Assembly (NCBI GenBank): GCA_950075905.1
Contig: CATMVR010000002.1
Location: 1 to 35,583 of the forward strand
DNA from: an uncultured Persicitalea sp.
GTDB taxonomy: Bacteria > Bacteroidota > Bacteroidia > Cytophagales > Spirosomataceae
Direction of reading: 5' to 3'
Length of the DNA: 35,583 bases
Every line of letters starts with the position of its first letter. The stretch's first letter is position 1. The notes below the pieces were generated by a model. The model was not told where the DNA came from, did not search any database, and saw nothing but the letters and a program-made list of their open reading frames with translations. Made by a program: the position numbers and the translations under genes. Shown one piece after another: positions 19,803-35,583 of this stretch.

Positions 19803-20603
19803 TTATCGCTGGGTGGGGTAGTAGGAGTAAAGCCGGTTCGACTTGAACCTTATCGTATCAAATCCACGCCCCACTTTTTTCCTCAGGAAATAGTAGGTGT
19901 TGTTGCAGAGTGTATCCACATGCACCGTGTTTCCGGGCAGGTCGAACTCCGGTGTTTCCTTTTTGCCTGGTGTGTAGGGTTTTTGAAAAACTAGTTTGTA
20001 TGCAGGAACTTTGTAGAAGGTAGGGATTAATTCCAACGAGGCCCTCGTGGTTTTTTCCTCGAAACCGTCCACCACTGCTACCTTTACCGATTCTACCGTA
20101 ATAATTCCAGGCTTGCCTTCATCCAGTTTCCAGATGTGCCTTTCCCGGGGTTTCACCATTCTCTGAAAGATCAACTCCGACTTGACAGGATCATAGAATC
20201 CAAACCGCATCTGGTTGATATACCAGATATTGACTCTCACAGAGTCGGATGAGAGAAGGGACATCTGCTGTTTTAGGTCCGGATTGACATAAAACTGCTG
20301 TTCACGATCCTTTATGTAATTGATGACAACTGCTTTGCCGGTCATTTTGGACAGAAACAGGTATTCGTTTTCGACCACCATTTCTTCAGAGTACGTATCC
20401 AGCTCTTTGCAGTTGCAGGGAACTAGCAGACCGTTGGAGTCCACCTTACACACGGACTTAATGTACAGCTCGTAGGTATTGTCAATTGTGATAGCCCGAA
20501 GGCTATTCTTATCAATGTTTACTTCCTTGGCATAGAAGAAAGAGGGAGCTGGAAAAATCCTAATCCAGGGTAAAAGCTGAAGCAGAATGATGAGAACGTT
20601 CAT
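19803..20603 (-). CDS. Hypothetical exported protein
   Basis: 266-aa ORF with hydrophobic N-terminus, between two same-strand genes; 4-bp overlap with the upstream gene. Confidence 0.6.
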   Translation of the reverse strand: MNVLIILLQLLPWIRIFPAPSFFYAKEVNIDKNSLRAITIDNTYELYIKSVCKVDSNGLLVPCNCKELDTYSEEMVVENEYLFLSKMTGKAVVINYIKDREQQFYVNPDLKQQMSLLSSDSVRVNIWYINQMRFGFYDPVKSELIFQRMVKPRERHIWKLDEGKPGIITVESVKVAVVDGFEEKTTRASLELIPTFYKVPAYKLVFQKPYTPGKKETPEFDLPGNTVHVDTLCNNTYYFLRKKVGRGFDTIRFKSNRLYSYYPTQR

Positions 20604-21598
20604 TGAAGTCCAATTTTGATTTGCTGGAAATAACCGATGGGACCTACGGCCAAAGCTTTTGGATATGGCACCAGGTGCAAGGGATAATACTTGTTGTTAT
20701 GAATGCGATGCTGAAGGTCAAGGCGGGGGAAGTTGTAGGCAATCATCGAAACGCCCCAGTTCGTGGCGGTATTACCGACGTTAAGGTAGATGTTCGATTT
20801 GTTGTAGAAGTTTTCAACTCTGTTTCGGTAAAACACATAGCTGCTTCCAAGTTTATTGCTCAGCTCGTAGGAGCTGGGACTGTAGCCGGTGAATTTATTG
20901 AAACCCACCTCTACAAGGTTGAGCGCCCATTGGTCATCCCCGTGAAAAGTACCAAAAATGCCTCCCGTGTGGTAGCGGTCTTTCATGTCGGCCAGGGGTG
21001 GAAAAAACGGTGGACCGTCGTTGATATACCCAACCTGAAAACGGTCCAGATGAAGGCCCAGAAAACCCACCTGCTGCTTTTTGTATTGTGGGCCTGTAAG
21101 GAAAATTATCGTATTGCTTCCAAGGGTTATAGACCAGCGGTAGGGGTTCTGCAGGGCTGGCAGGTTGCGGGTATTGAAATAATAGAGGGGATAATTGCGG
21201 ATGCCGGGGCGGGCAGGACTTGTCTCACGCAACCGGTTGGCCAGCCCCGCGGTTGCCGTGTAAGAGATTACGGTCTCCAGATCAAGCCATTTGCCGGTTT
21301 TTCGGCCGGGTCGGTTACTGCCGATACCACCCCTGTATAGAATAACGTCGGAATTGATCGCCTGATAAAACCAGTTCTTACCCACGAAACTGCCAATGCC
21401 ACCTGATACCCCCAGTGTGAATGTCAACCGCTCTGCATTGGAGTAGTCGAGGCGGGCTTTGAGACTGTATCCGTATTGTATGGCATTGGTACTCCTGTAA
21501 TATACGGCGTTATCCTGTGCTGAGGCAAAACCAGCAGAGCATAACGCCACCAATAGCAGGTTGACTCTTCCGATGAGTAAAGCGTGAGGAAAACCCAT
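20600..21598 (-). CDS. Hypothetical secreted/outer-membrane protein
   Basis: 332-aa ORF with signal-like N-terminus (LLLVALCSAGFASAQ) and aromatic/Gly-rich composition. Confidence 0.6.
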   Translation of the reverse strand: MGFPHALLIGRVNLLLVALCSAGFASAQDNAVYYRSTNAIQYGYSLKARLDYSNAERLTFTLGVSGGIGSFVGKNWFYQAINSDVILYRGGIGSNRPGRKTGKWLDLETVISYTATAGLANRLRETSPARPGIRNYPLYYFNTRNLPALQNPYRWSITLGSNTIIFLTGPQYKKQQVGFLGLHLDRFQVGYINDGPPFFPPLADMKDRYHTGGIFGTFHGDDQWALNLVEVGFNKFTGYSPSSYELSNKLGSSYVFYRNRVENFYNKSNIYLNVGNTATNWGVSMIAYNFPRLDLQHRIHNNKYYPLHLVPYPKALAVGPIGYFQQIKIGLQ

Positions 21599-22999: not shown

Positions 23000-23403
23000 G
23001 GGTAGTTTCCAACATTCGGGGAAAATGTTTCATCAAATAGGATAACCTGTTTGATAATCAGCTATTTATTTAGAATCCGACCTCCCTCTTGCTACGAATG
23101 TTGATGGTCCGCCAGCGGCCACATTACTATTTTCATGGGATTTGTTCAGGTTAGCTGACTGATTAACCGAATATACTGAACCTTGATTGCTGAACAAGTT
23201 CGATTAACTAGTTTGAGCGCATAAGAACGAGTTTATTGATCCCAGTCCTGATTAGGGACTGGTACATTAATACGTTCGTTTTATTTTACTACCTCATGAC
23301 GCTCAGAGAAATCCTATCCGTCAATCGTCTCCTCTAACGTACTTAAATTCAGAGTAATACTTCTGGCTGATGAAACATTTTCCCGGAATGTTGGAAACCT
23401 CCC
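23000..23403. mobile_element. MITE-like non-coding element with ~31-36 bp terminal inverted repeats
   Basis: 23005-23035 GTTTCCAACATTCGGGGAAAATGTTTCATCA versus reverse complement of 23368-23398 GTTTCCAACATTCCGGGAAAATGTTTCATCA (30/31). The outer GGGnn may extend it to 36 bp. No ORF inside. Confidence 0.65.
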
Positions 23404-24875
23404 TGTGTAGGAAAAACGCAACACTAGCCACGCCACGCGACGATCGGTCCATCCCCACCTGTGTAGGGAAAACCAAATCCCGCCTTAGAGAAATGAATCA
23501 ACATGCGGTCCATCCCCACCTGTGTAGGGAAAACGATAGCTCCACCAGCCGGGACTCCACCTTAGCCGGTCCATCCCCACCTGTGTAGGGAAAACGTAAA
23601 CCTGAGCGTGACCGTGTGCATCATCAGCGGTCCATCCCCACCTGTGTAGGGAAAACGTCCCCTACCTGCTGGTGGCTACCCCTATACTCGGTCCATCCCC
23701 ACCTGTGTAGGGAAAACTGGATGTAGATCACGTAGATATTGAAGAATTTCGGTCCATCCCCACGCATGTAGGGAATACTCGGCCAGTGCCTCTTTGTGCG
23801 CCTTAATTACCGGTCCATCCCCACGCATGTAGGGAATACGAACCGTGGCCGCGCACGTGCTGACCTTTTCGCGGTCCATCCCCACGCATGTAGGGAATAC
23901 ATTGATGTACTCAATGACTTTTAGCGGTGAGCCGGTCCATCCCCACGCATGTAGGGAATACCGATACGGATTGTACCCAATATGCTCATTACCCGGTCCA
24001 TCCCCACGCATGTAGGGAATACCAGCGCATTATATCCGGGTTGGTATCGTAGTTCGGTCCATCCCCACGCATGTAGGGAATACCGGCCTGCCTGATATAC
24101 CTCCTGTCTCCGCTTCGGTCCATCCCCACGCATGTAGGGAATACTCAATAAACCGCTCGTCGGCGGTGTTCCAGTTCGGTCCATCCCCACGCATGTAGGG
24201 AATACTCACCCTGGTGTAGGGCAGCACCTCCTCATACGGTCCATCCCCACGCATGTAGGGAATACGCGTGACGCTTTCGGGGGCCGCGACCGGAACTCGG
24301 TCCATCCCCACGCATGTAGGGAATACCCCTCCCCTCCCTTCCGAATATCATCCTCCATCGGTCCATCCCCACGCATGTAGGGAATACCTCCTGACGGCCG
24401 ACGCATCGAAGGCCTTATTCGGTCCATCCCCACGCATGTAGGGAATACCGCATTCGCCCCGGCACAGACTCCTGTCGGGGCGGTCCATCCCCACGCATGT
24501 AGGGAATACGCTTTCAGCGACTCAACGTAGCGGTCAATGGCCGGTCCATCCCCACGCATGTAGGGAATACCATCGGCTTCGGTGGACCTCAGGTTCGGGT
24601 GTCGGTCCATCCCCACGCATGTAGGGAATACTTGGTAGCGTTACCCGTTACCATCGTCTTGTACGGTCCATCCCCACGCATGTAGGGAATACGGTATCTT
24701 TTGGAATGCCATTAAGAACATAAAAGGTCCATCCCCACGCATGTAGGGAATACTGTCAGGGGGCGGTTTGGGGTGGCGGCGTGTTCGGTCCATCCCCACG
24801 CATGTAGGGAATACGGTGGTGCCTACGGAGGAAGTGACACCGGAACCGGTCCATCCCCACGCATGTAGGGAATAC
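23389..24875 (-). CRISPR. Type I-E CRISPR array 1: 25 repeats (29 nt), 24 spacers (mostly 32 nt), two repeat types
   Basis: Plus-strand repeats: one degenerate at 23389; five CGGTCCATCCCCACCTGTGTAGGGAAAAC (23445-23717); nineteen CGGTCCATCCCCACGCATGTAGGGAATAC (23750-24875). 61-nt period except a 31-nt spacer at 24206-24236 and a 27-nt interval at 23418-23444. Minus orientation from I-E repeat polarity and the degenerate end at the left. Confidence 0.97.
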
Positions 24876-24947
24876 ACTAAAAATTTGCATGTGAACGCGG
24901 TTTTCGTACGTCAAAGAGCGTTTATGTGTTTTTAAGAAATTTTTTGT
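24876..24947 (-). promoter_or_regulatory. AT-rich leader of CRISPR array 1
   Basis: AT-rich non-coding DNA between the array's conserved end and the cas6e stop. Confidence 0.65.
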
Positions 24948-25628
24948 TCAGAATCTGGCGGGGGCCAACGAGAGCAATCCAAAACCAAAAGCCTTGGCAG
25001 GTCCAATGCCACTCTGCAGGGCGGCTTTGAAAAGTATGGGATCAGTCACGCGTAGCATTCCATCAAAGCGGACGCCGTAAAGCGGGATTGCTTGTCGCGA
25101 TTCGACCGTGCTCCCCTTGGCTGCTTCGTACCAGAAATCATCACTACCGGCCCATAGTATCTCGAAACCATGTTGCTGTCCTTTCCGGCTCAGCCATGCC
25201 TGGGCAGCGGTCGGAGCATCGGCTTCATCGTCCTGAGTCAGGTAATCGGCGAGGGCCACACGCCGGCCCTGTTTCCTGCCCTCACGCTTTTCCTTGCGTG
25301 TCGGATTGGCCACAAGACGGAACTGGAATGTCTGGCCTGACACAAAATCAGGGTCGGCTGCTGTATACTTGACGGAAGTAGTGTAATGTTCAGGCAAGCG
25401 ACTCCAGTCCGGCTCAGTGTGTGACTGCACCAAAATGGTCGGCTGTGCATCGCGGTAAGACAGTGGCTCCAGCCGAAACAGCACACCATGCTCGACCCGA
25501 TAGTCCCTGCCGGGCACCGTCTCGAAAGCATGGGCGAGTGTACGGTGCAGTTCATAGGGTGCAGCCGCATCGCGCCGTGCCTCGAACGATCGGGGGTTAA
25601 GAGTGATTTTAGACAAAAACATGTTCAA
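24948..25628 (-). CDS. cas6e: Type I-E crRNA endonuclease Cas6e
   Basis: MFLSKITLNPRS...YELHRTLAHAF; C-terminal G-rich loop SGIGPAKAFGFGLLSLAP; position in the operon. Confidence 0.93.
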   Translation of the reverse strand: MNMFLSKITLNPRSFEARRDAAAPYELHRTLAHAFETVPGRDYRVEHGVLFRLEPLSYRDAQPTILVQSHTEPDWSRLPEHYTTSVKYTAADPDFVSGQTFQFRLVANPTRKEKREGRKQGRRVALADYLTQDDEADAPTAAQAWLSRKGQQHGFEILWAGSDDFWYEAAKGSTVESRQAIPLYGVRFDGMLRVTDPILFKAALQSGIGPAKAFGFGLLSLAPARF

Positions 25629-26440
25629 TCGGGGACTAAGGTTGGACGGATATAGGTGACCACTTCGCGGGGGGCAAACCGGCGGGGGGCAAACGAAAGC
25701 GGCACATCGCTACGCTGTGCTCGGCTTGCCGGGATGTATTCGCCTGGTGCGTCGGGAGACTGGGCTTTGCCAGTCCCGGCATCCAGCACCAGCCGCACCG
25801 TCTGTGCCGACAGCTCTGCTGCCCCGCTCCAAATCTGCTCCCGATCACCAATGGATTCGGGCATCAACGCTGGGTCAAGGGCCGTTAGCAGCGCTGTTGT
25901 CAGGGGGGCACGCATGACGGAAGGCCCTGTGCCCTCACCAAGCTCGAACCGTACGGGCCAGGTAGGCACGAAGGATTTGCGACCAAGAAACAACGGCCAA
26001 TAGGGTTTGGCTAAGGCCGCGTCCAGGGCAGACAGCAGGTCTCCATCCTCGCTCTCGAACCCCACCAGGAAGTGGGCATCGCTGAGGTAGTACCGCTCCG
26101 ATAAGACGGTGGTCTGCAAGTCGCCGGGGTTGGCGGGCTTGCCGGGCTTCAGCTTGGCACTGGCCCGCAGCACGTTTTGCGCCGTGTGGTAGTCGCGGCG
26201 CAGGACGCCCTCCCGAATGACCCGCACCCCGAAGCACATAGCGGCCAGGTCGGCAAGAGTGCGTTCCTGCCCAGCGATAACGTGCGTGGCTTCGGCCCGG
26301 TCCCAGCCCAGAGCGGCGCAAAGCAAGCCAATCACACCGCTTTTCGAGGGTTCGGCCAGCGTTTCGCGGATGCCGAACCGACTGCTCACGCCCCAGGACT
26401 GCATCGGCCCGGCCAGTCGTAAAATCAGGGTGTGGCTCAT
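25625..26440 (-). CDS. cas5e: Type I-E Cascade subunit Cas5e
   Basis: MSHTLILRLAGPMQSWGVSSRFGIRETLAEPSKSGVIGLLCAALGWDR; overlaps the cas7 stop by 4 bp. Confidence 0.95.
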   Translation of the reverse strand: MSHTLILRLAGPMQSWGVSSRFGIRETLAEPSKSGVIGLLCAALGWDRAEATHVIAGQERTLADLAAMCFGVRVIREGVLRRDYHTAQNVLRASAKLKPGKPANPGDLQTTVLSERYYLSDAHFLVGFESEDGDLLSALDAALAKPYWPLFLGRKSFVPTWPVRFELGEGTGPSVMRAPLTTALLTALDPALMPESIGDREQIWSGAAELSAQTVRLVLDAGTGKAQSPDAPGEYIPASRAQRSDVPLSFAPRRFAPREVVTYIRPTLVPD

Positions 26441-27654
26441 GCGGGTTCGGGCTTGGCGGTGAGGAAGGTTTTCAAGGTTCCCAGCAAGTCGGGAACGCTG
26501 TCGAGCGTCTCGACGCCCGCCGCTTGCAACGATTGCGCCGCTTTCCCCCCGGCATCGAGCATCACGCACGCAGCCTGGCCGTTCAGCCCGTACATCTTTT
26601 GCAGCCTACCGTAGTGCGCACTCAGCGATTCGACGGCCCGGCTGGTCAGGCTTTCGTCCTGTCCGGGTTTTACGGGATTCTCAAAGGCATTGACCAGCGA
26701 AACCGGCTGCCCCGATTCCCGCATCACCACCATCACCAGCGCGGGCAGCGAGTGGGCCGCAAAGGTGTTCTGCTTGCCCGAAGGCCGCGCCTGCACGAAC
26801 GCCTCGGCGAAGGCAAGCACTCCTTCCCTGGCGGCTTTGGCATCGCCGCCCAGGTTGCGGGTCAGTTGGCTCGTATCGACACAGGCGAAGCGGTAGAAGC
26901 ACGACGAGGAGAAGCCGATGGTGCCGATCATGCCCGCCCCGGCGTTTTCGGCAGGCTGCAGGTCATCCACCGCCGTGAAGTAGTCGAACTCCATGTTCAT
27001 GCGGTTGACCGAAATGGCGTGGCTCACCTGACAGGCCGCATCCACGTTTTCGGCGGGGTTGTCGGCCAGCATCCGGCCAAACAGGGCCACATCCACTGCC
27101 CGCACGTGCTTGGGGTAGGTTTTCTTGTACTGATCGGCCAGGGCCGCGAAGGGCTTTGCGGCTTCGGAAATAGCCTTTTCGTGATCGGCCTTTTCCTTCT
27201 TCGAGACACCCTTGGCGGGCGGATTGCTCCGCAACTCGGCCAACTGCCCGGCGGCGGCTATCGTTCCGGGCTCGGCACCGTGCAGCAGGTCGGCGGCTCG
27301 CTGTAATTCCTCCGGCCCGACGTAGAGCAGGTACCTCGTCTTGCCGTCGTCGTCAATTTTGTACAAAGCCTCGTAGAACTCCGCCGCCAGGGCCTTGGCC
27401 TGAGTCTCCGAATGACCCAGCCCGACGAGCAGTCCGGCAACCGCCTCGGGCGCTCGCTTGGTGCGGATGCCCAGGCGGTCGGTCATCTGTTCGCGGAACA
27501 CGTCGGACTGCCTGACGGAACGTTTCAGGCATTGGGAAGAGATGCGCTGCCGACGGTAGCCGCCGAAGTCGCAGTCTTTGGGCGCACCGCTGTCGTCACG
27601 GTTGAGGTTGGAGGGGGGGAAGTTCTGCAGGATGTGAAATTCGATGGTTTTCAT
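26437..27654 (-). CDS. cas7e: Type I-E Cascade subunit Cas7e (Cse4/CasC)
   Basis: MKTIEFHILQNFPPSNLNRDDSGAPKDCDFGGYRRQRISSQCLKRSVR; ADVALFGRMLADNP-type block. Confidence 0.95.
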   Translation of the reverse strand: MKTIEFHILQNFPPSNLNRDDSGAPKDCDFGGYRRQRISSQCLKRSVRQSDVFREQMTDRLGIRTKRAPEAVAGLLVGLGHSETQAKALAAEFYEALYKIDDDGKTRYLLYVGPEELQRAADLLHGAEPGTIAAAGQLAELRSNPPAKGVSKKEKADHEKAISEAAKPFAALADQYKKTYPKHVRAVDVALFGRMLADNPAENVDAACQVSHAISVNRMNMEFDYFTAVDDLQPAENAGAGMIGTIGFSSSCFYRFACVDTSQLTRNLGGDAKAAREGVLAFAEAFVQARPSGKQNTFAAHSLPALVMVVMRESGQPVSLVNAFENPVKPGQDESLTSRAVESLSAHYGRLQKMYGLNGQAACVMLDAGGKAAQSLQAAGVETLDSVPDLLGTLKTFLTAKPEPA

Positions 27655-27683
27655 AGGGATTGGGTTTTTAAATAAAAAAAAGG

Positions 27684-28283
27684 TCAGTTGGTGGTTTCAA
27701 AAAGATCTTCGTCCTCTTGCTCGGCCCGGGCGGTCTTCCAATAGTCACGAGCCCACTGGCGTTTGGTGTGGTCGCCCTCCCAATGCAGCAGGTCCGTCAA
27801 AATCCGACCGTAGTCCACCGGGATGCGGGCTTCGGCGGCAGCTATTCGTTGAATGAAGCCCCGCAGCGGCACGGCGATGTCCTCGCGGTCGCTATCAAGC
27901 AAGGCGACGAATCGCTTATCCAGGCTATCTTGCCCCGCCCCAAGCTGGGTGCGCAGCCGTCGCAGCGACTCGCCGAACGACCGGGGTTGGTAGCTTGTGC
28001 TGTCGTCATCCTCACTAAATCCGGGTACTTTGTACCCGCCATCTGGGGTGGTGAACCGCTGGGCGTGGATGGCGTAGAGCGTCCCCACCAGGCGGTAGGC
28101 GTCGAAGGGCCAGCCGCTGGTTTCGGGCAGAAGCCCGCCCAGTATCCAGATGGAACGGGTGTCGCGCAGCGGGTCGGCGGCGGCGCGGCGGAGTTCGGCC
28201 AGTTTGGCGCGGCCCTCCGCATCGCGCTGCTTTTGCAGAAATCGCACCAGGTTGTTGATCGAGGCTTTGTCGTAAGGATTCAT
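27684..28283 (-). CDS. cse2: Type I-E Cascade subunit Cse2 (CasB)
   Basis: Start at MNPYDKASINNLVRFLQKQRDAEGRAKLAELRRA; ends overlap cse1; position between cse1 and cas7. Confidence 0.9.
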   Translation of the reverse strand: MNPYDKASINNLVRFLQKQRDAEGRAKLAELRRAAADPLRDTRSIWILGGLLPETSGWPFDAYRLVGTLYAIHAQRFTTPDGGYKVPGFSEDDDSTSYQPRSFGESLRRLRTQLGAGQDSLDKRFVALLDSDREDIAVPLRGFIQRIAAAEARIPVDYGRILTDLLHWEGDHTKRQWARDYWKTARAEQEDEDLFETTN

Positions 28284-29836
28284 ACGGGTTCGGTTTTTTT
28301 GGATTTGAGGTAAAGAGTTCCGGTGTTCAGCACCGTTTCGGCTTCGGCCAGGGCCTGCCAGGCGGAATCGCTGGGTTTGTAGTGATCCAGGACGCCATGC
28401 AGCGCGGCCTTGGCAACTTTTTTGATCATGGTCTGCCACTCTTTGCGCACGGCCCCCAGGTCGTCGGTGGGTACGGTGGCGATTCGGGCCAGAATGCGGT
28501 CGAACTGCTGCCCCAGCACGGGCCAGTAGCGGGCGTCGGTGTCGAGGGCTTGCACGAAGGCGTCGCGCTCGCCCCGCTCCACATCGCTCAGGCGAATGCC
28601 CCAGGGCTTGTTGAGCCGGGCACGGGTGGCGAAGGCGCGGGTGGCTTCGCGCAGCCGGAAGTCGCGGATTTTCCTTGCATCTTCAATTATGTCCCTTAAA
28701 GTGAGCCAGCGGCCTTCCTCGGTTATGATCTGGGGGTAAACCGTCACCCGTTCCTGCCGCCATAGTTCGACCTTGGCCTTGTCGTTGACCATGCCGAACA
28801 CATCCGCCGCAAAAGCCACCCGGCGGTCAAGGTCGAGTTCTTCAACATTGTTCGCCAGCCATTCAAAGGTCTTCGGCGCGTGACCGCCTTCGCCCTTTTT
28901 CTCAATGTTCATCATGTAAGCCGCACTGCCCTGCCAGAGCGCACGGGCCGTACTGAACCGCAAGGGGTAAAGCCCTTCGTTACCCGCCAGGTAGGCCAAG
29001 TGTGGGTCGTCGAAAAGTAGGTTCTCGACCTTGCTGCCCTGGTTGTAGCGGACGCCAGTCACCCCTTGCTCCTCGTTCAAGACCACCTGCAGGCGGCGGC
29101 TTTGAAACGTGAACAGTTCACGGATACCGCCAACGTCGCGTTTTTTGGGTAATGGCGGTTCATCCGCTTCCCAGGCAGGATGATCGCCCTCGGTGTTTCC
29201 CCAAACCCCGGAATCGGGGGCAAGGTTGAGCAGCAAGGCCCGAAACAACGAAGGTCTTTCGTCCGCCACGCCCCGCAGCCAGAAGTACGCCCCGCCCACC
29301 AGCGGTCCGTGGCATAGATTGAACGGCTTGGCCACCCCGCCGCCCAAAGCCGCCGCCTGAGTGCAAACCAGCGCACGGGCCGCTTGGGCCAGCGTCAGGG
29401 GCTGGTTTTCGGCATCAAGGTCATGACTGAACAGCGCGGCGTTATTTCCACTGGCCGCCGCGTGAAACAGGCGCGTTATGGGCGAAGGGTCTTTCGCTTC
29501 CGTGTCGGGGTGGCCGTAAAAAGGCCGCGTCGGCGACAGCAGGTCGAAGCGGTCGGTGTGTTGGGCAAAGTACGCTTCGCATCGCGCGGCGTCGAACGCC
29601 CCCTCCTGCCAGCGGTCAAACCAGTCCGATTCGTCGGTTAGTTCCGGGAATACAGAAGCGGTCAAAGCCGCCAGCAGCCGATTGAGGGCGATGGTTTCGA
29701 GCGGATTGTCGGTCGCCAGTTCCTCGATTTCGTGCGCCCTGGTCAGGGCCTCGTGTAGGCCCACGTCCGTCGGCGGGCCGCCCCCGCGCCACCGCATAGG
29801 TAGCCAGGGTTCTTGTAGTAGGTTGAAGGAATTCAT
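28280..29836 (-). CDS. cse1: Type I-E Cascade large subunit Cse1 (CasA/Cas8e)
   Basis: MNSFNLLQEPWLPMRW..., FDLLSPTRPFYGHPD, AAALGGGVAKPFNLCHGPLVGGAYFWLRG. Confidence 0.95.
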   Translation of the reverse strand: MNSFNLLQEPWLPMRWRGGGPPTDVGLHEALTRAHEIEELATDNPLETIALNRLLAALTASVFPELTDESDWFDRWQEGAFDAARCEAYFAQHTDRFDLLSPTRPFYGHPDTEAKDPSPITRLFHAAASGNNAALFSHDLDAENQPLTLAQAARALVCTQAAALGGGVAKPFNLCHGPLVGGAYFWLRGVADERPSLFRALLLNLAPDSGVWGNTEGDHPAWEADEPPLPKKRDVGGIRELFTFQSRRLQVVLNEEQGVTGVRYNQGSKVENLLFDDPHLAYLAGNEGLYPLRFSTARALWQGSAAYMMNIEKKGEGGHAPKTFEWLANNVEELDLDRRVAFAADVFGMVNDKAKVELWRQERVTVYPQIITEEGRWLTLRDIIEDARKIRDFRLREATRAFATRARLNKPWGIRLSDVERGERDAFVQALDTDARYWPVLGQQFDRILARIATVPTDDLGAVRKEWQTMIKKVAKAALHGVLDHYKPSDSAWQALAEAETVLNTGTLYLKSKKTEPV

Positions 29837-29838
29837 GA

Positions 29839-32646
29839 TTATTGTTTGGTGTAAATTAATCCTAATCTGTTATCCAGCGTGAGTTGCACATTCCCTACCG
29901 TGGCATTCCCATCAACCAGCTCCACCAGCTGAAAGCGTTTCAGCACCCGATGTTCCTCCTGCATGGCGAGCCATTCAGGGTTCTCTTCTTTCCATAGCGT
30001 GGAAACAATACCGGGATGGCTGATCCGCACGGCGGCACCGAAAAGGGTACGCAGCGTCTCGGGCTGTAGCCTCCGGTTTTTGGTCCGGCATAAAACCGTT
30101 TTATCGCCTGGCTCCACCGCCCAGCCCCCATCAGTTTCATATAGAAGCAGTACTTCGGCATTGATGCCGTCCGAACTGCGGGTCAGGGCTTTGAGGTGTT
30201 CGGGCAAATCGCCTTTCCCTTTTTCCCCGTCCTCTTCGGCCAATTCAGGTTTTTCAAACACAAACAGCTTCCGCAGTTTTCCCGGCTCCGGCACCAGCCG
30301 CTTTGCGGCATCGGCCATTTTGCTTCGGTCGGCTCTCAGCCACTCGGCCACTTTCTCAGGATATAGGGCTTGAAACTCTTCATCCAGTCCTGCAGGAACT
30401 GCAGCCAAGTCGCCATACACCGCCTCGATCAGAGCCCGGTAGCCCGGCCCGGCCCCATCGCCCAGCGGCAAGGTCCAGCCGCCCGCTTGCCGCAGCACGG
30501 CCCAGGTTTTCCAGAGCAGAGCCGTTTCGTATATTTTGCCGCCGCCCGAAATCCCGTCCACCTCGGGCAGTTTGCCCTCCTCGCTCTCCGCGCAGGCGAT
30601 GTACATCACGGGTTGGGAAAAACCAGCGGGCCGCTCGCGCTGGTGGCGGTGCAGCCGCCCGGCGCGTTGCAGCAGCAAATCGACCGGAGCCAGGTCGGTG
30701 ATGAGGGCGTCCACGTCCAGGTCGAGGCTTTGCTCGATGACCTGTGTTCCCACCAGCAGACCGGACTGCGCGGGGCGTTTGGGGCCGAAGCGGGCGCGGG
30801 CGTCTTTCTCACGCTCCTGCCGCCAGGCTTGGGGCATTCGGGCGTGGAGCAGCATCCGGTCGGCCTTGGGTAGTATTTCATCGGTGTCGAGTTTCTCAAA
30901 AACCTCCTGCGCTCGCTTGACGGTGTTGCAGACGATCATTACCGTGGCTCCCGCCGCCAGCAGTCGCCGGGCGGTGGCCACAACGGAGTCGATTCCGGCA
31001 TCACACCAGCGGAAGGCTAGTCTTTGGCCCCGTCCCGGTGCGGGGGCAAAGGGGTGGGCAGTAGTGGTGCCGTCAGCGGCATGCCACACCACCGGGTAAG
31101 GTGCCGGACGAGTACCGTCAGGCACTTCGGGGCTGCCCCAGGCAGCGAGCATCCGCTGGCGCGCTTCGGTGGGCAGCGTGGCCGACAGCACCACTACGTT
31201 GACATTCAGCGCGCGCAGCCAACGCAGCAATTGCCCAAAGACGGTATTCATGTAGGCATCGTAGGCGTGTACCTCGTCAAAAATGACCGTCTTGCCATTC
31301 AGCGCGAACAGCCGTAGGAAAAAATGCTTGGCGTAAAGGACGCCGAGGAAAAGCTGATCGACCGTCCCAACGCCGTACGGAACCAGCAGGGCCCGCTTCT
31401 TGGGCATGAACCAGCCCAGCACCCGGTCCTTGCCGGATTCTTCCCTGCCCTTCTTAGCATCATTGTCGTCTATTTCGGCGGTAGCTTCGGCGATGGTGAG
31501 CAGCGCTACGGCATCGTCGTGGAGCAAGTCGTTGCCATGTACCAGGCGTAGGGCGGCGGTATCGCCGACATGGGCTGCCACCAGACCATTCTCTACGTCA
31601 CCCGCCACAAATGTTTTCAGGCGCGGGTAGAGGCCGTCTGATGTAGATTGAGAGGGCATGGCTACGTACACCCCCCCGCCATTTCGGGCGGTGACATAGA
31701 ACCCGGCTTCGGTTTTGCCTTCGCCCGTCGGGGCTTCGGCGATAATCAGGTTGGGCTGGTCGGGATGCAGGGGCAGAGCGGCCACGATTTCCTGTAATGG
31801 GCGCGGAGGGTTGCCAAAGTGTTTTTCAAAATCCAAAGCCCGCAGACTGGCCCGCTGATTCAACCCGGCCTGACGATAGGCTGTGTACGCGCCCTCCCGG
31901 CTACTAACCAGGTAAGCCGCGAGGTCGTCCTCGGCCCGAATGTGCAGGTCGTAGCAGCTTTGCATCGATCCGAGCCAGTCGGCCAGCGTGGCCCAGCCCG
32001 CGAAGGCCAGCAGCCAGTCGGGCCAGGAATCTTTAAATGCATTGAGTGTGGGGAAGGCGTTGCTTGATGGAAGCGTAGCCCCCCATGCCATGAAAACCGC
32101 TTCGGTGAGGTCGTGCTGGGCTTGCCTCCAGGTTTCGTTACCCAGCACGGCTTCGGGGCGCGGGTCTAGGGCGACGCCCTCCCATGTTTCTTTCTGGCAA
32201 AGCTTGCCGTGATGAATGCCCACGAAAGCGGCCAGGGCATCCAGCAAGGTTTTGCCTGTAAACCCCTTGGCGCCCAGCCAACGCTGCGCGATGGCGATAG
32301 ACGCGTGACCGTGGTGCAGTCGGTTATGGTTTTCGTGAAAAAACAGCCCGGCCGCTTCCTGCCGCGCCTTAGCGGGTTCGTTCATTTCCTGAAAGCCCGG
32401 AATCCCCTTCCCCAGATCATGCAATCCAATCCAAATGCTGAGAAACCGACCGGCTTCGGCTTCGCTCATACCGAGAGCAGCGGCCATTTTCTGTTTCAGT
32501 GAATCTGGAAGGAACTCGTCCCACAGCAGTTGCGCGGCGCTGCCCACGTCGATGAGGTGTGCCCAGAGCGGGTGTGTCCAGTCGTCGGCTAAGCCTTCGA
32601 CTTTTTCGCGGTTGGTTTTGGCCCAAAAGAGCCGCCAGTTTTCCAT
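29839..32646 (-). CDS. cas3: Type I-E helicase-nuclease Cas3
   Basis: N-terminal HD domain (HPLWAHLIDVG, GLHDLGKGIPGFQ, HHGHASIA); helicase motifs EAPTGEGKTEA, FDEVHAYDAYM, LSATLP, GTQVIEQSLDLDVD, QRAGRLHRH. Confidence 0.97.
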   Translation of the reverse strand: MENWRLFWAKTNREKVEGLADDWTHPLWAHLIDVGSAAQLLWDEFLPDSLKQKMAAALGMSEAEAGRFLSIWIGLHDLGKGIPGFQEMNEPAKARQEAAGLFFHENHNRLHHGHASIAIAQRWLGAKGFTGKTLLDALAAFVGIHHGKLCQKETWEGVALDPRPEAVLGNETWRQAQHDLTEAVFMAWGATLPSSNAFPTLNAFKDSWPDWLLAFAGWATLADWLGSMQSCYDLHIRAEDDLAAYLVSSREGAYTAYRQAGLNQRASLRALDFEKHFGNPPRPLQEIVAALPLHPDQPNLIIAEAPTGEGKTEAGFYVTARNGGGVYVAMPSQSTSDGLYPRLKTFVAGDVENGLVAAHVGDTAALRLVHGNDLLHDDAVALLTIAEATAEIDDNDAKKGREESGKDRVLGWFMPKKRALLVPYGVGTVDQLFLGVLYAKHFFLRLFALNGKTVIFDEVHAYDAYMNTVFGQLLRWLRALNVNVVVLSATLPTEARQRMLAAWGSPEVPDGTRPAPYPVVWHAADGTTTAHPFAPAPGRGQRLAFRWCDAGIDSVVATARRLLAAGATVMIVCNTVKRAQEVFEKLDTDEILPKADRMLLHARMPQAWRQEREKDARARFGPKRPAQSGLLVGTQVIEQSLDLDVDALITDLAPVDLLLQRAGRLHRHQRERPAGFSQPVMYIACAESEEGKLPEVDGISGGGKIYETALLWKTWAVLRQAGGWTLPLGDGAGPGYRALIEAVYGDLAAVPAGLDEEFQALYPEKVAEWLRADRSKMADAAKRLVPEPGKLRKLFVFEKPELAEEDGEKGKGDLPEHLKALTRSSDGINAEVLLLYETDGGWAVEPGDKTVLCRTKNRRLQPETLRTLFGAAVRISHPGIVSTLWKEENPEWLAMQEEHRVLKRFQLVELVDGNATVGNVQLTLDNRLGLIYTKQ

Positions 32647-32696
32647 TGTTTTTTGATAAGGCGATGGGGATAAAGGTATAACAGCCTACCTCCTAC

Positions 32697-32722
32697 GCCG
32701 GACATTTCATGTCCGGAATGAG
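32697..32722 (-). promoter_or_regulatory. Palindromic candidate operator upstream of cas3
   Basis: Minus strand CTCATTCCGGACATGAAATGTCCGGC; 8-bp inverted arms CCGGACAT/ATGTCCGG with 3-nt centre, about 50 bp upstream of the cas3 ATG. Confidence 0.7.
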
Positions 32723-32738
32723 TATGACTACGTAACGT

Positions 32739-33737
32739 TCATTTGCAATAACGTCGGACCAGTTCCTCCGCCTCCTGCCCCAGCCGTTCGCGTAAAGCGC
32801 CGGGTTCGAGTACCGTGATGCCCACGCCCCAGCCCTGGCAGAAGGAACGCATTTCCTCGAATCCCTCCAGCTCGTAGGATACCACCAGCCGGCCGTCAGG
32901 CCGTTCCTCCTCCACAATCTGCGTGGGGTGGTACTTGCGCTCATGGAAATGGGTGGCCTTGTCAGGCTCCACCAGTAGCCTCAGCTCGAAGCACTGGTCG
33001 GAGGTGATCGAGCCCAGGGAGGCCCGGAAATACGTTTCCGGGTTGAAGCTCTCGTCTACGGTGAAAAAGGCACCCTCCACGGCATCGTCGCAGGGAGCCA
33101 CGCGACTGATCCGGGTAAGGGCAAAAGTCAGCAGCTTTTCACGCTTATGGCAGTAGGCAACCAGCATCCAGGCGCGGTTTCGCTTGGCGAAGATGTAGGG
33201 GTCGATTTTCCTGTCATTTGAGATCCGGCCCTCTCTTGCGGTGAAGTAGTCAATCCTGATCGAGCGATGCTCGTCCATAGCCGTTTCCAACCGGCTGAAT
33301 ATATCCATTTGGATGCGATCCGGATCATTGTCGTCAAAGTGCCACTCCTGGGTGGGTTCCTCTATGTCAAAAAGGTAGGTGACGGGACGGGCCCGCTCGA
33401 GTAGCTTGACAAAGGCACGGCTTAGAGCTGCGGCGTGCGGTGTGCCAACCAATACTGACCGGCTAGCCTTGGCGGCAATAGCAAGGGCGCGCAGTTCAGC
33501 GGAATCGAAGCGTAAGTCGGGAATGGTAACCTGCTGGCTTTCCGGAGCCAGAGAAAACACCTTGCGCCTCTCCTCCTGCCGCTGCAGGATCGGCAATCCC
33601 TGTTCCTTCAACTGACTGATGAAACGGCGGGCCTGCCGTTCCCCGACTTTCGTCAGCTTCTGGATGTCATCCAGTGTCAGTGCACGACCTGTGTCCAGGA
33701 CCTGACGTAACAACTCTTCGGGTCTTATTTTTTTCAT
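32739..33737 (-). CDS. HTH/WYL-domain transcriptional regulator
   Basis: N-terminal HTH (LDDIQKLTKVGERQARRFISQLKEQGLPILQRQ), WYL core (IRIDYFTAREG...KIDPYIFAKRNRAWMLVAYCHKREKLLTFALTRI), C-terminal WCX-like extension. ATG at 33737 preferred over the ORF start at 33842. Confidence 0.88.
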   Translation of the reverse strand: MKKIRPEELLRQVLDTGRALTLDDIQKLTKVGERQARRFISQLKEQGLPILQRQEERRKVFSLAPESQQVTIPDLRFDSAELRALAIAAKASRSVLVGTPHAAALSRAFVKLLERARPVTYLFDIEEPTQEWHFDDNDPDRIQMDIFSRLETAMDEHRSIRIDYFTAREGRISNDRKIDPYIFAKRNRAWMLVAYCHKREKLLTFALTRISRVAPCDDAVEGAFFTVDESFNPETYFRASLGSITSDQCFELRLLVEPDKATHFHERKYHPTQIVEEERPDGRLVVSYELEGFEEMRSFCQGWGVGITVLEPGALRERLGQEAEELVRRYCK

Positions 33738-33788
33738 TGAGGTAGGGGTGACAGTTAGTTGTGGATTGCAAGGTTGAAGGAGCATTGC

Positions 33789-33814
33789 CTCATGCCGGAC
33801 ATCGAATGTCCGGC
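33789..33814 (+). promoter_or_regulatory. Palindromic candidate operator in the WYL-cas1 divergent intergenic region
   Basis: CTCATGCCGGACATCGAATGTCCGGC; 9-bp arms GCCGGACAT/ATGTCCGGC; 50 bp before the cas1 ATG and 57 bp before the WYL ATG. 23/26 identical to the cas3 site. Confidence 0.75.
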
Positions 33815-33863
33815 TTGCCGCACATGTGGCTTTAAGTTGCAACGTAAATCAACAAATAAATCT

Positions 33864-34799
33864 ATGAAACACAAACATGCATTGCGGGATTTGCCCAAAG
33901 TTCGTGATTCTCTTTCATTCCTTTACGTGGAGTACGGGCACGTAGAGCAATCCAGGCTGGGGGTTGAGTTCGTCAACAGGCTGGGGCAGGTTCCTATTCC
34001 GGCGGCAAGCTTGTCCTCATTGTTGCTAGGGCCGGGCACCACGATCACCCATGGAGCGATCAGAACTCTGGCCGAAGCCGGATGCTCTTTGGTTTGGGTC
34101 GGGGAGGGTGGGGTCAGATGCTATGCCCAGGGTACCGGGGAGACAAACAAGGCCTATCGTCTCATGCGGCAGGCCGAACTTTCGGCAACGCCCGAGCTTC
34201 GACTGCAGGTGGTGGAGCGGATGTACCGGGCCAGGTTTCCGGAGCCACTGCCCCAGGGTCTCAAACTCGAACAAATTCGGGGCAGGGAGGGGATACGAGT
34301 GCGTGAGGCCTATGCCCAGGCCGCACGCAAATTCGGTGTGAGTTGGAACGGCAGGAATTACGACCGCAACAACTGGAACGATACGGATCCGGTAAACCGG
34401 GCTCTGTCATCAGCGAACGCCTGCCTGCACGGGCTGGTACATGCTGCGCTACTTTCGTCGGGTTATTCTCCGGCACTCGGCTTCGTGCACCAGGGCAAGC
34501 AATTGTCCTTTGTGTATGACATAGCCGATCTCTACAAAATGCAGCTGACAGTTCCTGTCGCTTTTTCGGTAGTGGCGGAAGGCCCGGATAAACTGGAAAC
34601 GAAGGTCCGCAAGCGGTGCCGTGATGCCTTCAACAACCTGAAACTGTTGCAGCGAATCGTCACCGACGTGGATCGCCTACTTTCCTTGGATAAGGAACCG
34701 GAGAATCCCGATGGTTTTGACCCTGACGAAGATCCAGCCCTGCCAACCCCCTGGTGGAGCAAATTGCCAGACAACCCAGCCAAATCCACCGAGCCATGA
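33864..34799 (+). CDS. cas1e: Type I-E integrase Cas1
   Basis: MKHKHALRDLPKVRDSLSFLYVEYGHVEQ, LLLGPGTTITHGAIRTLAEAGCSLVWVGEGGVRCYAQG, SSANACLHGLVHAALLSSGYSPALGFVHQGKQLSFVYDIADLYK. Confidence 0.97.
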   Translation: MKHKHALRDLPKVRDSLSFLYVEYGHVEQSRLGVEFVNRLGQVPIPAASLSSLLLGPGTTITHGAIRTLAEAGCSLVWVGEGGVRCYAQGTGETNKAYRLMRQAELSATPELRLQVVERMYRARFPEPLPQGLKLEQIRGREGIRVREAYAQAARKFGVSWNGRNYDRNNWNDTDPVNRALSSANACLHGLVHAALLSSGYSPALGFVHQGKQLSFVYDIADLYKMQLTVPVAFSVVAEGPDKLETKVRKRCRDAFNNLKLLQRIVTDVDRLLSLDKEPENPDGFDPDEDPALPTPWWSKLPDNPAKSTEP

Positions 34800-35080
34800 C
34801 CATACTGATCCTGGAAAGGGTCTCCCCCACGCTGCGGGGCGACCTCGGCCGCTGGCTGGTTGAAATACAAGCGGGGGTGTTCGTCGGTCGCGTAAACGAG
34901 CTTGTGCGCGAAGCACTGTGGGAACGGGCCACAGGCCGCGCCGATGATGGCACAGTATTGATGGTTTGGCGCACAAACAGCGAGCAAGGCTTTGATCTAC
35001 GGGCCTGGCAACCTAAAAGCTATATTCCCATCAATCTGGAAGGCATCTGGCTGACCCGCCGACCGGCTTCTAACACTTAG
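34796..35080 (+). CDS. cas2e: Type I-E Cas2
   Basis: MTILILERVSPTLRGDLGRWLVEIQAGVFVGRVNELVREALWERA; 4-bp ATGA overlap with cas1. Confidence 0.96.
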   Translation: MTILILERVSPTLRGDLGRWLVEIQAGVFVGRVNELVREALWERATGRADDGTVLMVWRTNSEQGFDLRAWQPKSYIPINLEGIWLTRRPASNT

Positions 35081-35126
35081 CGTTTCTCTTTGTCCAAAAA
35101 AGGCTGTTTCTTGTCATTTGATCAGG
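35081..35126 (+). promoter_or_regulatory. Short leader of CRISPR array 2
   Basis: 46 bp between the cas2 stop and the first repeat. Confidence 0.6.
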
Positions 35127-35583
35127 GTTTTCCCTACACAGGTGGGGATGGACCGACCGCTTCGAGTGAGCTATCCTCGTACTGATCGTTTTCCCTACAC
35201 AGGTGGGGATGGACCGAAGACCGCACTAGGCGACTGGAATCTACCCGAGTTTTCCCTACACAGGTGGGGATGGACCGTAAGAAGGAACTGGAAACCGCCG
35301 CCGTGCAACGTTTTCCCTACACAGGTGGGGATGGACCGGCTGAATATCGGGCTCGATGTCCAGCTCCATCGTTTTCCCTACACAGGTGGGGATGGACCGG
35401 ATGGTCTGCCTATTGTGTGGCCCCGTCCGACGTTTTCCCTACACAGGTGGGGATGGACCGGTGGCTGCAGGCCGGTCAAAACGTGGCCGTAGGTTTTCCC
35501 TACACAGGTGGGGATGGACCGGCCCGCCGCAAGCCCGTGCACCACGAGTCGAAGTTTTCCCTACACAGGTGGGGATGGACCGG
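35127..35583 (+). CRISPR. Type I-E CRISPR array 2, continuing past the window end
   Basis: Eight repeats GTTTTCCCTACACAGGTGGGGATGGACCG at 35127, 35188, 35249, 35310, 35371, 35432, 35493 and 35554; seven complete 32-nt spacers. Confidence 0.97.

Follow-up and report, generated by a model that had tools for sequence, protein, structure and literature searches.

Why should one CRISPR array be built from two repeat types, set end to end with nothing intermediate between them, and why should its oldest repeats be identical to those of a second array on the other side of the same cas genes? The locus that raises this question lies in an uncultured Persicitalea sp. (assembly GCA_950075905.1, contig CATMVR010000002.1). 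The window is the whole stretch of DNA analyzed, 35,583 nucleotides, and is an entire contig (C2 hereafter) whose end falls inside the second array. The two repeat types are referred to as ATGC-type (GTATTCCCTACATGCGTGGGGATGGACCG) and CAG-type (GTTTTCCCTACACAGGTGGGGATGGACCG), and the features of the locus are as follows, in window coordinates.

About 23399..23418, minus strand: terminal repeat of array 1, degenerate, truncated and CAG-type (GTTTTTCCTACACAGG...), adjoining an inverted-repeat element
23445-24875, minus strand: array 1 as a whole, 24 repeats with the degenerate terminal repeat beyond
23445..23717, minus strand: leader-distal block of array 1, five CAG-type repeats
23718..23749, minus strand: junction spacer, from the last ATGC-type to the first CAG-type repeat
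23750..24875, minus strand: leader-proximal block of array 1, 19 ATGC-type repeats
24876..24947, minus strand: leader of array 1 (leader 1), of the cas6e-side leader family, conserved in five relatives
24948..25628, minus strand: cas6e (TIGR01907)
25625..26569, minus strand: cas5e (TIGR01868), true start probably near 26431
26437..27654, minus strand: cas7e (TIGR01869)
27684..28439, minus strand: cse2 (TIGR02548), true start probably near 28235
28280..29836, minus strand: cse1/cas8e (TIGR02547)
29839..32646, minus strand: cas3 (TIGR01587, TIGR01596)
32739..33842, minus strand: WYL/WCX-domain regulator, within the cassette between cas3 and cas1
33888..34799, plus strand: cas1e (TIGR03638)
34796..35080, plus strand: cas2e (PF09707)
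35081..35126, plus strand: leader of array 2 (leader 2), of the cas2-side leader family
35127..35583, plus strand: visible part of array 2, eight CAG-type repeats, cut by the contig end; last visible spacer GCCCGCCGCAAGCCCGTGCACCACGAGTCGAA

The type I-E gene set is complete (Cas3, Cse1, Cse2, Cas7, Cas5, Cas6e, Cas1e, Cas2e), with NCBIfam models matched above cut-off for seven of the Cas proteins and Cas2 assigned via PF09707. The arrays carry the hallmarks of the type: a 29-nt hairpin repeat, spacers of ~32 nt (one spacer of array 1 has 31 nt), and an AT-rich leader. Array 1 on the minus strand and array 2 on the plus strand diverge from the cas genes that they flank, and both the gene set and the placement of arrays on either side match the pattern reported for two-array type I-E genomes (PMC12814883). 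The G+C content of the cas cassette (24948-35080) is about 60%, against 51-53% in the flanks.

The switch described from the sequence in a preliminary description is real in its main features. Counted from the leader, array 1 consists of 19 ATGC-type repeats and then five CAG-type repeats, with no intermediates; the two types differ at positions 3, 13, 14, and 15 and fold into an identical stem of 7 bp whose 4-nt loop occupies positions 12-15. All eight visible repeats of array 2 are CAG-type, as had been claimed when the leader-distal repeats of array 1 were equated with them. The nineteen leader-proximal repeats had also been called uniform; the number holds, but the uniformity does not, the copy at 24725-24753 ending in T rather than G (G29T). 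Past the five intact CAG-type repeats comes a terminal one, of CAG type as well, which is degenerate and truncated. It is cut short by an abutting element of 404 bp at 23000-23403, whose inverted ends span 36 bp and are 92% complementary; this element occurs once in the assembly.

The second occurrence of these repeats is on a different contig. A pattern search of the genome, with up to 3 mismatches allowed, recovered them on one contig besides C2—C99—among the 819 contigs of an assembly that is 82% complete. The C99 array (L021:1-1458) opens with 27 nt of spacer and comprises 23 ATGC-type repeats and a degenerate ATGC-type terminal repeat at 1430-1458; its first complete spacer is TATTGCCAGTACCGTAGGGCTGGACGCTTACG, and no leader is found on the contig. 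Each terminal repeat agrees in type with the block that it ends: the one at 23399-23418 is CAG-type and the one at C99:1430-1458 ATGC-type. Array 2 on C2 thus has no distal end and the C99 array no leader, and these complementary loose ends suggest a join, with C99 most likely the distal continuation of array 2. Were the two contigs joined, array 2 would run from leader 2 through a CAG block into an ATGC block and so mirror array 1. In tetranucleotide profile, the C99 flank correlates with the left flank of the window at r 0.85, the highest value seen. About 225 bp past the C99 terminal repeat, in an otherwise ordinary flank, lies a resolvase-family serine recombinase gene (L021, 1683-2237).

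The 52 complete spacers of array 1, array 2, and C99 are all distinct and have no 12-mers in common, which rules out C99 as a strain variant of array 1. One C99 repeat matches the region of the junction repeat over 36 nt (3 + 29 + 4 nt), the largest match among 1485 pairs; we treat it as chance, since a hand estimate gives roughly half a pair of that length at random.

Could the junction have been made by the assembler? The assembly is fragmented and incomplete, as given above, and 29-nt repeats are difficult for short reads; a chimeric junction, or the inclusion of C99 from another strain, would be an artefact of assembly or binning. However, any word of the junction spacer (23718-23749) found again in the window or in C99 is at most 11 nt long, and the window contains no Ns. 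An assembler collapse at the junction is therefore unlikely, because de Bruijn assemblers, at their usual word sizes, would need a longer shared word to link the blocks there. Had the error instead occurred at one of the repeats, a real unit bordered by both types, ATGC and CAG, would remain, and the distinct spacers of C99 show that array 1 has not simply been collapsed into a second version there. The switch thus appears to survive the join of two separate arrays at about 23718-23750 that the preliminary description had raised against it, and an artefact is, in our estimate, the remotest of the explanations considered here.

Comparison with related loci shows how arrays of this kind ordinarily vary. 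Five genomes of the same family have Cas1 proteins 82-83% identical to that of the present locus, one of them being Spirosoma panaciterrae (G285), and a Cas3 search of genome contigs returned one relative, S. panaciterrae, on the same contig. Order- and phylum-wide searches yielded no additional relative equally close, no congener was found among the relatives searched, the exact repeat is absent from the 198 relatives searched, and the more distant loci examined have at most one array near the cas1 gene. All five close relatives share the layout of the present locus, with the cassette between two divergent arrays of two different repeat types. The leaders form two families, cas6e-side and cas2-side, each conserved across the five. 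What sets the present locus apart is that two repeat types are combined within one array, and presumably within both, as is the case at none of the five relatives' loci.

Most of the relatives' arrays show single-base repeat drift, and array deletions are common; the leader-proximal repeat of array 1 might likewise have drifted stepwise, with the intermediate-bearing units lost later through spacer deletion. Yet the ten arrays of the five relatives contain no sustained multi-site repeat switch, nor any sustained step of more than one position. Among their 385 adjacent repeat pairs, steps of at least 3 positions are confined to terminal repeats and to isolated repeats whose change is undone in the next unit, which argues that the switch in array 1 is not a matter of chance. 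One such terminal step, in the cas6e-side array of G008, is a loop change confined to a single unit: the last repeat (L053:18628-18656) differs from its neighbor at positions 8 and 13-15. Drift would also leave unexplained why C99 has an ATGC block of 23 repeats complete with a terminal repeat, and why the older type is exactly that of array 2; we consider it very improbable. In the type I-E arrays of E. coli and Salmonella, degenerate terminal repeats are usual and old units may differ from new ones (PMC2886076), a likeness that extends to array 1; its four-position switch, in contrast, is sustained and exactly matches another array, so it is not drift of that sort.

To which leader, then, does each block belong? 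The CAG type differs from the cas2-side repeats of the five relatives at 5, 4, 2, 6, and 4 positions and from their cas6e-side repeats at 9, 8, 6, 7, and 6. The ATGC type is likewise nearer the cas2-side repeats (mean 4.2 versus 6.8 differences), so repeat type alone does not tie the ATGC block to leader 1; comparison with relatives assigns the CAG tail to the cas2 side but not the ATGC block to either. The existence of C99 suggests that the CAG tail of array 1 belongs with the cas2-side leader, that of array 2, and that the missing ATGC tail is the one on C99.

We therefore favor, with a probability of roughly 0.68, an exchange of array tails in which the two divergent arrays recombined and the ~10-kb cas cassette between them was inverted once. 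The cassette (leader 1, cas6e through cas3, the WYL regulator, cas1, cas2, leader 2; about 10 kb) would be bounded by arrays that act as an inverted-repeat pair. In the starting state, the array of leader 1 would have been ATGC-type throughout and that of leader 2 CAG-type throughout, terminal repeats included. If one repeat of each type took part in a single homologous crossover, the cassette would be inverted and the distal parts of the arrays swapped, leaving array 1 as leader 1, ATGC block, and CAG tail, and array 2 as leader 2, CAG block, and an ATGC tail, now on C99. A crossover within the 14 identical bases GTGGGGATGGACCG (positions 16-29) would leave both recombinant repeats looking parental, which would explain the lack of intermediates. 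After such an inversion each leader would remain beside its own cas-side neighbor, as fits the conserved leader families, and two once-homogeneous arrays would leave terminal repeats that match the type of their own distal block.

Several features of the locus are consistent with this inversion. The arrays have the opposite orientation around the cassette that it requires, and the distal part of array 1 is of the other array's type, its five CAG-type repeats being identical to those of array 2. A single event explains both loose ends, the distal end of array 2 and the leader of C99. The relatives' arrays also show tandem duplications of one- and two-spacer blocks, from which it follows that the repeats of such arrays recombine or slip; in the cas2-side array of S. 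panaciterrae (L051:16956-19972), for example, two-spacer blocks are tandemly duplicated, spacers 8-9 equaling 10-11 and spacers 26-27 equaling 28-29.

Other evidence counts against the inversion. The two repeat types share only a short homologous stretch, 14 nt if exact or 29 nt if 4 mismatches are allowed, and arrays are reported to recombine with each other rarely (PMC11472070). The cas2-side flanking genes and their orientation are kept between G043 and G008, and likewise between S. panaciterrae and G295; no cassette flip is seen among these relatives with shared flanks, and this, like the failure of the ATGC type to point to leader 1, weighs against the proposal. The C99 and left-flank genes have no informative neighbors in the relatives, so the ancestral order is not readable from synteny. 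A stronger version, in which the cassette flips repeatedly between its divergent arrays and moves old spacer archives from leader to leader as a memory-reshuffling switch maintained in the population, seems to us improbable.

The picture in array 1 alone would be the same if its leader end had been replaced: a third array, with C99 as its distal end, could have converted the repeat next to the leader of an originally CAG-type array 1 (and perhaps some of the leader too) to ATGC, and later acquisitions would have copied the new repeat. C99 shows that an ATGC-type array exists in the genome, and the resemblance of both repeat types to cas2-side repeats means that an earlier conversion between arrays may have occurred. 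This account nevertheless requires a third leader, which the assembly does not contain, and a separate loss of array 2's distal end. In each of the four relatives whose locus is closed, genome-wide repeat counts equal those of the two local arrays, which excludes a third array there, and leader 1 is the native cas6e-side leader. We judge a leader-end replacement unlikely. The preliminary description had itself proposed a one-step replacement rather than drift; a single recombination step is supported, whereas replacement of the leader-end repeat is not, C99 suggesting reciprocal exchange instead.

The same junction would also be expected if a deletion had fused tandem arrays (leader 1 with ATGC-type repeats, followed by CAG-type repeats), removing the first trailer and the second leader, or if the tail had come from another strain by homologous recombination. 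Fusion by deletion would have destroyed the ATGC tail, yet this tail persists on C99, and tandem arrays occur in none of the relatives examined; we rate these origins as very improbable, on a par with drift.

An inversion of the cassette between its own arrays would be an unusual but understandable rearrangement, and one that involves no new mechanism; repeat-mediated rearrangement at CRISPRs is already known. In PMC5637354, which cites DeBoy 2006, CRISPRs are credited with large chromosomal recombination events in Thermotoga, and the large-scale inversions of the Thermotogales (DeBoy et al. 2006, as cited in PMC5637354 and PMC1896005) resemble the present case in that CRISPR repeats are held responsible as sites of chromosomal recombination and inversion. 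The segment proposed to have inverted here differs in being just the cas cassette of ~10 kb, bounded by the two arrays that belong to it. No paper describing a cas cassette inverted between the arrays that flank it was found in the literature searched, which was partial in coverage.

The proposed exchange leaves a visible mark because the repeats of the two arrays differ. If confirmed, the locus would represent a clean, self-recording inversion of a cas cassette, in which the differing repeats write into the array an exchange that is normally invisible. It would follow that the order from leader to tail is not always a single chronology, as a tail may stem from acquisition under a different leader. 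Mirror-image repeat switches in paired arrays could then serve as a simple signature of such events in the many two-array I-E and I-F genomes.

The preliminary description had also pointed out that Cas6e must process both loop variants. Judging from the related loci, this is ordinary, the normal state in this family and not a novelty, because all five relatives pair one such cassette with two arrays of differing loops. The cas genes are intact. The spacers of array 1 have no match in the phage collection, and those of C99 have two weak matches only (E 0.04 and 0.4). Elsewhere in the window, an ORF at 20600-21598 resembles Ntox23 (Bacterial toxin 23) weakly, with a score below the cut-off, and a neighboring ORF matches DUF900.
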